A DNA stretch of 64,000 nt from Verrucomicrobia bacterium LW23 (GTDB taxonomy: Bacteria; Verrucomicrobiota; Verrucomicrobiia; Methylacidiphilales; UBA1321): positions 372,001 through 436,000 of the forward strand of contig QAZA01000011.1 of the NCBI GenBank assembly GCA_003054695.1, written 5' to 3'. The translations under genes were made by a program, and so were the position numbers. Position 1 is the stretch's first letter, and each line of letters begins with the position of its first letter. The notes under the pieces were generated by a model, which saw only the letters and a program-made list of their open reading frames with translations, did not search any database and was not told the origin of the DNA. Below, piece by piece: positions 5,233-12,757 of this stretch.

Positions 5233-5961
5233 CTACGGCTTGAGCTGTTGCAGCTGATGGTGCAGGTCCAGGCGCTGGGCGGCGGCGCGGTCGTTTTGAT
5301 GGGCTTTGCGGGCCAGCTCTTTGAGGTCGTCGGGGGGGATGTCGCGGGCTTCGGCCCACAGGGTGGCAATGCGCTCGTTCTTGCGGTGGATCTCCGCCCA
5401 GTACGGGGCGTCCTCGCCCGCGCCGGGATCGCCGGGCTGCAGGGTGGCGGTGGAGAGGCCGAGGAGGGCGGCGGAGGCTTCCGGGTCGTCGTACTGCAGG
5501 GCGCGGGCGCGCAGGGCCTGGGTTTGCGCGGTAATACCCGCCGGGCGGCGGTACTGGCGGGGCGGCACGGTACGGCTGTAGCGCGGCAGAGTGGAGGCGC
5601 TTACCCCGGCGCGGAGCATACGGTTTTTGGCCAGGATGTCGCGCCAGTCGGCGGCAGCCTCGGCGTCGGAGCGCTGCAGCGTGTACCAGGCGCACAGGTA
5701 AAGCGCGGCGTCGGGGTCATCGCCGGCCAGGGCGGCGGCGCGGTGCGCGGGCAGATCGGCCTCGCTGGTGGTGTACCGGGCCAACTCCAGCTCTCGCACA
5801 GTGTTGGCATCGGCGGAGGGGGAACTGGGGTACAGCGCCATCCACCCCAGCGCCGCCAGCACGGCCGCCGCCAGTAACGCCGCGATAATCAGCGTGCGCC
5901 GCCCCGCGGACGAAGGGCGGGAGGAAGTGCCAGCATCAGCATCCATCATCATCATCATCAT
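5233..5961 (-). CDS. Membrane-anchored protein of unknown function
   Basis: The frame begins with six consecutive ATG codons (5944-5961), so the exact start is ambiguous; taking the first gives 242 residues. One hydrophobic segment near residues 20-40 (TLIIAALLAAAVLAALGW) is followed by a soluble, Ala/Arg-rich domain with helical character and sequences such as ALYLCAWYTLQRSDAEAAADWRD split by short linkers, perhaps TPR- or Sel1-like. No recognised motif. The ATG run is a simple (CAT)n tract on the plus strand and could vary in length. Confidence 0.6.
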   Translation of the reverse strand: MMMMMMDADAGTSSRPSSAGRRTLIIAALLAAAVLAALGWMALYPSSPSADANTVRELELARYTTSEADLPAHRAAALAGDDPDAALYLCAWYTLQRSDAEAAADWRDILAKNRMLRAGVSASTLPRYSRTVPPRQYRRPAGITAQTQALRARALQYDDPEASAALLGLSTATLQPGDPGAGEDAPYWAEIHRKNERIATLWAEARDIPPDDLKELARKAHQNDRAAAQRLDLHHQLQQLKP

Positions 5962-6037
5962 AAACAACGGCCGCACGCGGCCCACCCATGATAGAGCCCC
6001 CGCCCCGCCCTGCCAGAACAATCCGCGCGGGGATTGT

Positions 6038-8904: not shown

Positions 8905-9702
8905 ATGCCTGGCTCCGAATTCGTACTCTTCGGCCCCGCCCACATTATGGCGCTGGTGTTTACCGTGCTGGCGCCGGTGGTGATGGCCTGGACGGTGCGC
9001 TCGCGCTGGCTGGGCGCCAATACCCGCACCATCATTGCCTGGGCGTTTGCCGTTGTCATGCTGCTAAACGAGGTATGCCTGCGCACGTGGATGGTGACCG
9101 TGGAGGGCAAGCAGTGGTTTCAGATTCTGCCGCTGCACCTGTGCGACATGCTGGTCTACATCACCGTCGCAGCCGTCTTCACCCGCTCGCTGGCCCTGTA
9201 CGAGCTGGCCTACCTGTGGGGCCTGGCCGGCACGCTGAACGCACTGCTGACGCCGGAACTGCCCGGCATGAAGGGTTTTCCCTCCCCCTGGTTTATTATG
9301 TTTTTCGTCCAGCACGGCGGCATTCTTGTCGGCGCGCTGTACATGACGTGGGGGCTGAATATGCGGCCGGATACGCGGTCGATCCTGAAGGTATTTGGGT
9401 GGTGCCAGGTGTATCTGGTGGTGGTGTTTACGCTCAACTACCTGCTGGGCACCAATTACGGCTTCATCATGGCCAAGCCCGACACGCCCTCGGTGCTGGA
9501 TCTGCTGGGCCCGTGGCCGCTGTACCTGCTGGCGATGCAAGTCCTTGGCATGGCGCAATTTATCTTTTGGTACCTGCCCTTCGCGTACTCGGACTGGGTG
9601 GGCGTGCAGCCCATCTTTGGCGCCAACGCCCGCCCACTGCCCGGCCGCCCGCTGGACGCGCAGGAAAATATCTGGAACGAGATAGAGAGCGGGCGGGCTT
9701 AG
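8905..9702 (+). CDS. TIGR02206-type integral membrane protein (YwaF-like)
   Basis: 265 residues with about seven hydrophobic helices across the length. Blocks FGPAHIMALVF near the N-terminus, LPLHLCDMLVYITV (about 75-88), WGLAGTLNALLTPEL and NYLLGTNYGFIMAKP match the TIGR02206/YwaF family, whose function is unknown. The start at 8905 (MPGSEFVLFGP) places the first conserved motif at the N-terminus, as usual for the family. It is followed by 92 bp and then the first secreted cysteine-signature protein. Confidence 0.82.
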   Translation: MPGSEFVLFGPAHIMALVFTVLAPVVMAWTVRSRWLGANTRTIIAWAFAVVMLLNEVCLRTWMVTVEGKQWFQILPLHLCDMLVYITVAAVFTRSLALYELAYLWGLAGTLNALLTPELPGMKGFPSPWFIMFFVQHGGILVGALYMTWGLNMRPDTRSILKVFGWCQVYLVVVFTLNYLLGTNYGFIMAKPDTPSVLDLLGPWPLYLLAMQVLGMAQFIFWYLPFAYSDWVGVQPIFGANARPLPGRPLDAQENIWNEIESGRA

Positions 9703-9794: not shown

Positions 9795-10307
9795 ATGACC
9801 AAGCGCACCATTCTGCTACTGCTGGCCGCATTTATTGCGATGGACGTGCTTGCCGTGGCTACGTTCGTTCTCTTCTCCCGCAGCGACCGGGATACCCCGG
9901 ACTACGTGCAGGCCCTGCGCAATCCGGACACCGGGAGCGTGAAACTGCTGGCCCTGGTGTCCAGCGAGGCCATGCAGGCGCAGGGCGAAGCCAAACCCTG
10001 GGCCGTCCGCGGCACGGCCTCGCTTACCCACAAATCCGCGCTGCAAGCGTGCGAGGAGGTCTCCCGGCTGATCCACACCGGCGGCGACGAAGCCAAGTGC
10101 TTTAACCCGCGACACGCCCTCTTCCTCACCTCCGGCGGCACGCGTTACGAGTATGTGATCTGCTTTGAGTGCGAGCAAATGCGCGTGTACCGCAGCGAAT
10201 CCCGACTGGAAACGGTGCCCATCCCCAACGCCCCCGACACGCTGGACGCCCTGCTGAAGGCCGCCGGCGTCGAGCCCACACCCGGCCCGCGCAAGGGGAA
10301 GAGCTGA
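9795..10307 (+). CDS. Secreted or anchored CFxPRHAL-CxxC family protein, paralogue 1
   Basis: 170 residues. An N-terminal hydrophobic segment (about 5-27) acts as signal peptide or anchor. The family signature is KCFNPRHAL (C102) followed 21 residues later by CFEC (C123, C126), with GTRYEYVI before it. Upstream is the GSVKLLAL strand equivalent to VTLYSL in the other copies. Its stop overlaps the ATG of paralogue 2 (TGATG at 10305-10309), implying translational coupling. The start at 9795 excludes a long upstream extension of the same frame that lies inside the membrane protein gene. Function unknown; the invariant cysteines could bind metal or form a disulfide. Confidence 0.8.
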   Translation: MTKRTILLLLAAFIAMDVLAVATFVLFSRSDRDTPDYVQALRNPDTGSVKLLALVSSEAMQAQGEAKPWAVRGTASLTHKSALQACEEVSRLIHTGGDEAKCFNPRHALFLTSGGTRYEYVICFECEQMRVYRSESRLETVPIPNAPDTLDALLKAAGVEPTPGPRKGKS

Positions 10308-10957
10308 TGGCGCCGGCCTGGCAGACGGGCGCGGTGGGGAGGCCGGCGCGGACGAGGAGGATGCTGAGCATCGCAGCTACCCTGCTTGTCGCGGCCGCCG
10401 CAACCGCCCTCAGCCTCGTGGCCCTGCCGGCGCCTTCCGCAGCGAGCGCCAGCGCCGCGCCGGTCGCAGCCGATCCCGACGCTGACGCGCGCGGGGAGGT
10501 CATCCGCGCGCTTGCCGCCCCCGAGGCGGGGAGCGTCACCCTCTACTCCCTTACCGGCAAGCTGAGCAAACCATTGCGGCTGGAGGGCGACGACGTGCTG
10601 CAGGGCTTTGTTGTGCTGGGCAAAGCCGCGCTTTCCGACAAGGCGGGCGCCGCCACTTCCCCCTCTTCCCTCTCCCCCGCCGCCCGCGCATGCAACGCCT
10701 TTGGAGAACTGCTTGCCCCCACCCGTGTCCTCGCGGCGGAATGCTTCATCCCCCGCCACGCGCTGACTCTCCGCCACGGCGGGCACCGGTACGACATCCT
10801 CATCTGCTTCGAGTGCTCCCGCTACTCCGTCTTTCGCGACAACAAGGAATTCCTGGCCGACGCCACCGCCGGCACCCCCGCCGCCCTTGATTCCCTCAAC
10901 GCCCTGCTCCGCGCCGCCGGAGTCCGGCTCCCTCCCCAGCCGCCCAAGGCGGAGTAA
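10307..10957 (+). CDS. Secreted CFxPRHAL-CxxC family protein, paralogue 2
   Basis: 216 residues. The N-terminus has a basic stretch, then a hydrophobic Ala-rich core (about 20-40), then a low-complexity Ala/Ser linker to about residue 60. The core domain shows GSVTLYSL, FVVLGKAALS, ECFIPRHAL (C146) and ICFEC (C167, C170). This is the longest of the four copies because of the linker and an Ala/Ser insertion after VLGK. It overlaps the preceding gene by one base. Function unknown. Confidence 0.8.
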   Translation: MAPAWQTGAVGRPARTRRMLSIAATLLVAAAATALSLVALPAPSAASASAAPVAADPDADARGEVIRALAAPEAGSVTLYSLTGKLSKPLRLEGDDVLQGFVVLGKAALSDKAGAATSPSSLSPAARACNAFGELLAPTRVLAAECFIPRHALTLRHGGHRYDILICFECSRYSVFRDNKEFLADATAGTPAALDSLNALLRAAGVRLPPQPPKAE

Positions 10958-11060
10958 ATGGTCTAAGCGCCAGCCTATTCCCAAGCCTCCGCGCGTATGA
11001 TAGTGTGGAGGGACTAGCCGGATCGCTCCTCCCCCTCCTCTTTTACGCTATGCTAACGTT

Positions 11061-11603
11061 ATGCCGATGCTCGACCTGATTCGCTTCACTCGCTTAGCTG
11101 CCTTTGCCGCAGTGCTGATCCTTCTGCCGGCGGCGCTGGCCGTGGCGCAGCAGGCCAAAAATACGGTGCAAAAGCCCTGGCCGGCGGACTTTGAGGCCGC
11201 GTTGTCGAAGCCGGGCAAGGTTACGCTCTACTCGCTTAACCCCTACAAGCTCAACAGCCTGGAGCTTCGGGACAATCCGGAGAACCTGTACAAGTACAAG
11301 GTGCTGGGCAAAACCGATCTCTCCGCGGAGCAGGCCGTGGAGGCGATTGCGGAGTTTCGCCTGGCGGTGACGCAGTTTAATGGCGACTGGGCCAAATGCT
11401 TCAGCCCCCGCCACGCGCTACGCATCGAGATGAAGCCGGGCGACGTGTACGACCTCCTGCTGTGCTACGAGTGCAGCCGTATGCTGACATGGCACAATGG
11501 CCAATATATGTTCCACTACGGCGTAGGCGGCAAGTCGGACAAGCTCAACGCAATGATTACCGCCGCCGGGTTGCAACTGGCCAAGCCTCCGGGCCAGGAC
11601 TAG
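11061..11603 (+). CDS. Secreted CFxPRHAL-CxxC family protein, paralogue 3
   Basis: 180 residues with a clear signal peptide (hydrophobic 11-28, likely cleavage after ALAVAQQ). Mature domain: WPADFEAAL, GKVTLYSLNP, YKVLGKTDLS, KCFSPRHAL (C113), then YDLLLCYEC (C135, C138), closing with LNAMITAAGL. The cysteine spacing (22) is one residue longer than in the others. It sits 103 bp after paralogue 2. The TAG stop overlaps a repeat word (TAGAGGCTGTCGACATT) also seen at the end of rsgA. Confidence 0.82.
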   Translation: MPMLDLIRFTRLAAFAAVLILLPAALAVAQQAKNTVQKPWPADFEAALSKPGKVTLYSLNPYKLNSLELRDNPENLYKYKVLGKTDLSAEQAVEAIAEFRLAVTQFNGDWAKCFSPRHALRIEMKPGDVYDLLLCYECSRMLTWHNGQYMFHYGVGGKSDKLNAMITAAGLQLAKPPGQD

Positions 11604-11625
11604 AGGCTGTCGACATTTTGCCTCC

Positions 11626-11758
11626 TCCCCCATTATCCCCTGCTTAGAGGCTTGTATCCCCCTTAGAGCGAGACATCTGTGAAGCCGTACTGCAGTTACG
11701 GAGGAGAATGTCTCGCGCTAAGGGGGACGTAAGCCTCCAAGCAGGGGATAAAGGGGGA
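11626..11758. repeat. Family A palindrome copy 2
   Basis: The left arm has TTATCCCCTGCTTAGAGGCTT and CCCCCTTAGAGCGAGACAT; the right arm has ATGTCTCGCGCTAAGGGGG and AAGCCTCCAAGCAGGGGATAA. It resembles the elements at 4967-5120 and 13884-14010 in having CTTAG, GGCTT and CCCCCTTAG in the same order. It lies after paralogue 3 and before paralogue 4. Confidence 0.8.
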
Positions 11759-11791
11759 GCGCAAGGAAGGTTGAACATCGTGGAAGCAGCT

Positions 11792-11881
11792 CTTGGCGAA
11801 ACTTTCCGCCCTTGGCGATGTTATCTGAAGGTCCGTAGATCCAAGGCAGATAGTATTGCCAAGGACGGAAAGTTTCGCCAA
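11792..11881. repeat. Second palindrome after paralogue 3
   Basis: CTTGGCGAAACTTTCCGCCC at about 11792 pairs with a near-exact complement, GACGGAAAGTTTCGCCAAG, at about 11862-11880, with a loop of about 45 bp. The rest of the gap to 12178 shows no further gene or clear repeat. Confidence 0.7.
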
Positions 11882-12178
11882 GGGGATGCCGCAACTCGCA
11901 AGCCTCATGAGGGAGCTACCGGCTGTCGCGCGGGGACTATATAGCCCTTCGCCGCTTCGTGCACTTTGCGGCAGAATGTGGGGAGGTGCGCCAAATTGCC
12001 TCGCGTTTTTGGGGTGGCTGTGATGTAATGGGGTCCTTTATCAGCCCAAAAGATTCGATCGCAATAAAAAGTGAATATCGAGGGGTGGCACGGCTCGGCA
12101 AACAGGCGTAGATTAATTTGACTAATAGTCTGCACACTCCATCTCATCCGATCCATTCTATCTATCCATCCCCATCCT

Positions 12179-12757
12179 ATGAAAACAATGCGAGCGATCC
12201 TCAGTCTCACTCTGCTTTTCTGTGTCGCCTTCACGGCCGTGGCATCCGCGGCCGATAAACCGGCTGCAACCAAGGCTGTTGTCAAGGACGAGCCCCGCAA
12301 AGCCGGCACCAGCAACGCCCGCTACCCCCAGCAGCGCTGGCCTGCCGATTTCGAGAAGATCCTCAACAATCCCCCGCCCGACATGCTCCTCTACTCCCTG
12401 GAGCCCCTGGAGGGCAACCACCCCAAGGAGGAAGGGCTGCACGGCTTTAAGGTGCTGGGCAAGATGACCATGTACCCCGAGCAGGCGCGCGCTGCCGTCG
12501 ATGCCTTTCAGGACGCCATTGACAATTGGGACAGCAAAATGGCCAAGTGCTTCAAGCCGCGCCAGGCCCTGGTCGTCAACAGCGGCGGCAACCGCTACGA
12601 GCTTCTCTTGTGCTACTCGTGCCACGTGCTCAAGTGCTACCGCAACGGCGAGCTTGTCCGCAACTACGGGGTGAATGGCAGCCCCGCCGTACTCAAAAAC
12701 ATCCTTCGCCGCGGCAATCAGGAGCTCTCGACGACCGACCCGTCCAAGGGCACTTAG
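12179..12757 (+). CDS. Secreted CFxPRQAL-CxxC family protein, paralogue 4
   Basis: 192 residues. Signal peptide with core ILSLTLLFCVAFTAVA and likely cleavage after ASA (about 24). A charged linker leads to WPADFEKIL, DMLLYSLEP, FKVLGKMTM, KCFKPRQAL (C124) and LLCYSC (C145, C148). Here the signature His is Gln and the Glu between the paired cysteines is Ser, so the three cysteines, Pro and Arg are the invariant part. It is separated from paralogue 3 by 575 bp holding two palindromes, so probably has its own promoter. Function unknown. Confidence 0.82.
   Translation: MKTMRAILSLTLLFCVAFTAVASAADKPAATKAVVKDEPRKAGTSNARYPQQRWPADFEKILNNPPPDMLLYSLEPLEGNHPKEEGLHGFKVLGKMTMYPEQARAAVDAFQDAIDNWDSKMAKCFKPRQALVVNSGGNRYELLLCYSCHVLKCYRNGELVRNYGVNGSPAVLKNILRRGNQELSTTDPSKGT

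Follow-up and report, generated by a model that had tools for sequence, protein, structure and literature searches.

The described proteins nearest to the family reported here are found by fold, by location and by local similarity. In predicted fold they are 4r7r, an uncharacterised putative lipoprotein of Clostridium perfringens, and 2mct, a protein of Ruminococcus gnavus whose function is likewise uncharacterised. DsbD and the thioredoxin-type redox proteins share with the family an envelope location and a CxxC motif. The HVO_0758 family of zinc-finger mini-proteins (PF23137 / NF041912) shows a weak local similarity to the cysteine region of one of the proteins considered below (P3).

The window, that is, the whole stretch of 64,000 nucleotides from Verrucomicrobia bacterium LW23 that was analysed, contains four related genes for exported proteins in one run (P1-P4, Table 1), as had been proposed in an earlier note on this DNA. 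Pairwise BLASTP comparisons place their relatedness beyond chance (E 1e-14 to 3e-27), and a profile of 70 relatives, from which this genome was excluded, matched these genes alone among the 901 open reading frames of at least 40 residues in the window, the next one scoring E 0.19. P3 is the copy nearest to the family consensus, which reads CFxPRH[GA][IL]R ... [DE]x[VL]ICFEC. All four genes start with ATG and have a coding composition at third codon positions (GC 0.82-0.84). The stop codon of P1 and the start codon of P2 share one base in TGATG, as the note had described, and P2 has an alternative ATG at 10361. The signal peptide or anchor attributed to each protein was also recognised when the N-termini were judged by eye, and the signature C-F-x-P-R-[HQ]-A-L followed by C-[FY]-x-C was found in every copy, with the three cysteines and the proline at aligned positions. 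Some details of that description have to be amended. The segments corresponding to the VTLYSL strand read VKLLAL in P1 and LLYSL in P4; VLGK is replaced by VRGT in P1; and cysteine, proline and arginine are not the sole invariants, as F, A, L, G and Y columns are also invariant among the four.

Table 1. Positions of the genes, motifs and neighbouring features in the 64,000-nucleotide window.
Feature	Position	Strand	Description
P1 (paralogue 1)	9795-10307	+	170 aa; N-terminal membrane anchor and three-cysteine domain; external profile E 4.5e-23
P1 motif CFNPRHAL	10098-10121	+	
P1 motif CFEC	10161-10172	+	
P2 (paralogue 2)	10307-10957	+	216 aa; long N-terminal signal/anchor region; external profile E 2.9e-23
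P2 motif CFIPRHAL	10742-10765	+	
P2 motif CFEC	10805-10816	+	
P3 (paralogue 3)	11061-11603	+	180 aa; signal peptide; external profile E 9e-29
P3 motif CFSPRHAL	11397-11420	+	
P3 motif CYEC	11463-11474	+	
P4 (paralogue 4)	12179-12757	+	192 aa; signal peptide; external profile E 1.3e-25
P4 motif CFKPRQAL	12548-12571	+	His replaced by Gln
P4 motif CYSCH	12611-12625	+	His immediately after last Cys
Open reading frame	5233-6021	-	Six-Met run (ATG repeat) near N-terminus; no Pfam match
TMEM164-family membrane protein	8905-9699		PF14808, E 9.5e-52; directly upstream of the cluster
Repeat element	11618-11900		Non-coding, between P3 and P4; two long inverted repeats, arms 52 nt (88%) and 36 nt (89%)

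The neighbours of the cluster in the window (rsgA, the TMEM164-family gene, hisA, lgt and a gene for a laccase-domain protein) have no evident link to it. The non-coding element between P3 and P4 has 107 matching pieces across the genome, in about 45 separate places, and its full-length copies are at most 93% identical; on its sequence it is a MITE-like repeat family.

Two further copies are located on other contigs of the same genome, C5 (E 8.8e-33) and C39 (E 2.1e-14). A 76-member tree joins P3 to P4 (97/85) and P1 to P2 (98/78), and it places the six copies of the genome together with Verrucomicrobium sequences in a group of nine rows (96/82). Since the tree groups all six, the four-gene cluster most likely arose through local duplication within this lineage. 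Tandem copies have also arisen independently elsewhere, for example, four consecutive genes in an Armatimonadetes genome (L081) and pairs at four other loci (L043, L060, L055 and L071). The family was detected in 52 of the 392 sampled genomes of Planctomycetota, 18 of 387 of Verrucomicrobiota, and 3 of 149 of the phylum to which one Acidobacteriota member belongs; among 349 Pseudomonadota genomes the seed genome was the sole match. One relative of the same class as the window has the sequence that also occurs in Verrucomicrobium sp. BvORR034 (L032 and L052). The gene is mostly missing from close relatives of the window's family, and the plasmid and phage collections searched with the consensus protein gave no match.

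The domain is undescribed in the libraries searched, namely Pfam, NCBIfam and the sequences of PDB chains, so that no characterised family among these claims it. P1-P4 and the 76 aligned members had no Pfam-A or NCBIfam match at the curated cut-offs (best match in the window, E 0.047), the divergent members had none over the three-cysteine domain, and a sequence-profile search of PDB chain sequences gave nothing significant. Membership in the HVO_0758 family was rejected, since E was 0.09-0.15 and the scores of 12-13 bits fall far short of the cut-offs (27 and 70 bits). Likewise, the Fur-like NCBIfam matches of four members (E 0.02) were judged to be chance similarities around the CxxC. The string CFNPRHG occurred in no paper found, and the titles and abstracts returned by a broader literature search contained nothing on a three-cysteine family of this kind.

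A cell-envelope location, claimed in the earlier note, is supported across the family. A simple hydrophobicity test found a clear hydrophobic segment ahead of the domain in 85 of the 108 members with enough upstream sequence, and 38 of those 85 carry a lipobox-like motif. The remaining 23 have mostly a weaker signal segment under the threshold; a few of them form part of larger proteins as internal domains. It is proposed from these sequences that the members are small exported domains, which would be lipid- or membrane-anchored or else secreted. Several are attached to other domains recognised by Pfam: a caspase domain (L046, E 4.9e-14), HMA (heavy-metal-associated) and MauE domains together (L091), TPR (L163), HEAT with a weak match (L150), and a sulfatase (L156). 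Two further proteins, L158 and L160, are of sulfatase type by resemblance; all three sulfatase-type proteins are Planctomycetota enzymes with a copy of the domain at the C-terminus from which the cysteine site is absent. At L082, a separate sulfatase gene stands immediately upstream of an intact copy of the domain. Other proteins contain two domains (L074, L020 and L164), and L185, an open reading frame of genome G330, contains three copies of a sister form of the domain (CxGFH[PA]DY ... CxGC), one of them site-less. The large apparent fusions of L149, the L150 N-terminus and L043 were not counted, being apparent open read-through in GC-rich DNA.

To describe the site, residues are numbered on the modelled fragment of P3, and two sets are distinguished, a core alignment of 76 members and a wide set of 137 domains that includes the divergent members. 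The core alignment retains C87 and P90 in 76/76, C109 in 74/76 and C112 in 75/75; H92 is present in 75/76, R91 in 73/76, R95 in 65/76, and D105 in 63/76 with Glu in 11 others. In the wide set, C87 (131), P90 (134), C109 (130) and C112 (133) persist in 95-98% of the domains and are the only near-invariant positions, with H92 in 110 (80%) and R91 in 99. According to these counts, the superfamily is marked by the three cysteines and P90, while H92 and R91 characterise its main branch. The histidine had been underrated in the earlier note, as the only core member without H92 is P4.

P4 has Q92 and carries a histidine directly after C112 instead. Of the 21 members that lack H92, 6 have a histidine at that place, compared with 4 of the 105 that retain H92 (Fisher p 0.0015, with members that are not independent and about three origins). 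The resulting CxxCH, the c-type cytochrome motif, is present in just 10 of the 126 members having all three cysteines, P4 included, and a cytochrome reading was rejected for that reason. A sister subfamily with the signature C-x-G-F-H-[PA]-D-[YFW] ... C-x-G-C-[HGQ]-E, in which CFxPRH is replaced by CxGFH[PA]D, is homologous to the main branch (hhalign E 2.7e-10), and its profile also matches P4 (E 1.2e-5); here the histidine stands four residues after the first cysteine, against five in the main branch. A third branch, C-x-x-x-P-G-[VML] (hhalign E 1.7e-18), retains the three cysteines but lacks H92; its residue after C112 is often Asp, otherwise Ser or another one. The cysteine site is lost jointly in the three sulfatase-fused copies and in one domain of L185. 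From their sequences, these patterns of loss and shift fit one functional site that would require three cysteines and usually a histidine.

The predicted structures are consistent with such a site. AlphaFold2 gave confident models both for the P3 fragment with 76 aligned sequences (pLDDT 91.9, pTM 0.86) and for the canonical L045 domain (pLDDT 96.0, pTM 0.90), each an alpha+beta arrangement of a helix, two strands, a helix, four antiparallel strands and a helix. C87 and H92 are placed just before or at the start of strand 3, C109 ends strand 4, and C112 lies in the following turn. As strands 3 and 4 pair in a tight hairpin, the four residues are at its open end. The models thus put the cysteines at the base of one beta hairpin, and not far apart, and the order of secondary-structure elements suggests that the side chains of C87, H92, C109 and C112 would be close together. 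Metals are not modelled by AlphaFold.

The reading that we tentatively prefer, at slightly short of an even chance, is that the domain is exported and binds a metal at a Cys3-His site. The three cysteines and the histidine would be gathered by the last part of the loop that precedes strand 3 together with the turn that follows strand 4, and may bind one soft metal ion outside the cytoplasm, most probably zinc; the metal-bound domain could then serve as a stable binding or sensing module, either alone or attached to other exported proteins. The argument for it is that the three cysteines and H92 are conserved as counted above, that three cysteines are usual per domain (exactly three in 89 of 137), an odd number from which disulfides would leave one thiol unpaired, that the histidine shifts where H92 is lost, as in P4 and the CxGFH subfamily, that the whole site disappears together where it is lost, that both models are confident, and that one member is fused to HMA and MauE domains. 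Against it, four or five members retain C87 and C112 but have Tyr, Ser or Gly in place of C109, which fits a C87-C112 disulfide better; the PG[VML] subfamily has the three cysteines without H92; the counts in the Fisher test are phylogenetically non-independent; and the loci show no conserved metal-related neighbour. The latter follows from 102 neighbours of about 48 relatives' loci, where no family occurred in more than three.

The second reading is a thiol-redox domain, to which roughly half the weight of the metal-site reading is given. Here a C87-C112 disulfide (or one within the CxxC) would form, and the remaining cysteine near H92 would be a reactive thiol exchanging with a redox partner in the envelope. 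The isolated loss of C109 speaks for it, as do the C-[FY]-x-C spacing in nearly all members, the fusion of L091 to MauE (which is an integral membrane protein and belongs to the maturation set of methylamine dehydrogenase), and the gene at L075, which directly follows and overlaps a gene with a DsbD N-terminal domain. However, such redox links were seen at two of about 50 loci without enrichment, and the reappearance of a histidine elsewhere after the loss of H92 is left unexplained. In addition, both models place the CxxC in the turn that connects strands 4 and 5 and not at the start of a helix as in thioredoxin folds, on which ground a thioredoxin-fold CxxC protein was rejected.

A purely structural or adaptor role is somewhat less probable again and should be called unlikely. 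The cysteines would merely stabilise the domain through one disulfide, the motif would be a folding constraint, and the surface would bind a protein or glycan partner. This could explain why the fusion partners are so unrelated, from caspase and HEAT-like to TPR, sulfatase and HMA-MauE, why site-less copies persist on sulfatases, and why conserved neighbours are missing. On the other hand, Pro, Arg, His and Asp next to the cysteines are strongly conserved, more than one disulfide would require, and the number of cysteines, three, is odd. On balance the Cys3-His reading is favoured over both alternatives; where the earlier note had left the choice at a metal or redox site, the sequence evidence leans towards metal.

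If a metal is indeed bound, the domain would constitute a new extracytoplasmic metal site in Planctomycetota and Verrucomicrobiota. A more far-reaching proposal, which we regard as rather improbable, is that of an undescribed and widespread exported Cys3-His domain of these two phyla whose histidine has moved among three backbone positions, and which acts, alone, in tandem or as an add-on to caspase-like, sulfatase and HMA-MauE proteins, as a general module for sensing or buffering metals in the envelope. About one in eight sampled Planctomycetota genomes has the domain, and yet neither Pfam nor NCBIfam has a model for it; the alignment, the signature, the sister subfamilies and the two confident models would let annotators name it.

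Among known structures, 4r7r is the nearest. It was the top Foldseek match of the L045 model (E 5.3e-3, probability 1.00, TM 0.52/0.56). VIA-align ranked it first with either model (Z 7.8 and 7.9, rmsd 3.9 and 3.3 A, over 106 residues); the other rows scored well below it apart from 2mct, which aligned with one model over 89 residues (Z 6.2, rmsd 3.0 A). The galectin-like Foldseek matches were discarded (TM about 0.2, rmsd above 11 A), and the viral structure library gave no convincing match. DUF4362, tried as a candidate family for 4r7r, gave no hit in this genome and none above the cut-off in any named control genome, so the idea was dropped; the papers retrieved for 4R7R were unrelated by their titles. 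The family could be a distant homologue of 4r7r and 2mct, with the fold and the putative ligand-binding role of this uncharacterised Firmicute lipoprotein family and with cysteines added later, but this is the least probable of the readings and quite doubtful. Scores of this order (Z below 8) have also been reported for models that are unrelated and do not establish common descent, the identity is 9%, and no sequence-profile link to PDB chains was seen.

The likeness to known systems is partial. With 4r7r the family shares, in its predicted models, the overall alpha+beta arrangement, and also the character of a small exported lipoprotein, and with 2mct a similar arrangement, at 12% identity and with the weaker match. 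With DsbD and the thioredoxin-type proteins it shares the features named at the outset, while differing in the strand-to-strand position of its CxxC, in a third, co-conserved cysteine and in having no match to their families. In sum, P1-P4 belong to a real family, undescribed in the libraries searched, whose members count among small envelope lipoproteins with a fold that may already be known, and which does not represent a new kind of system.
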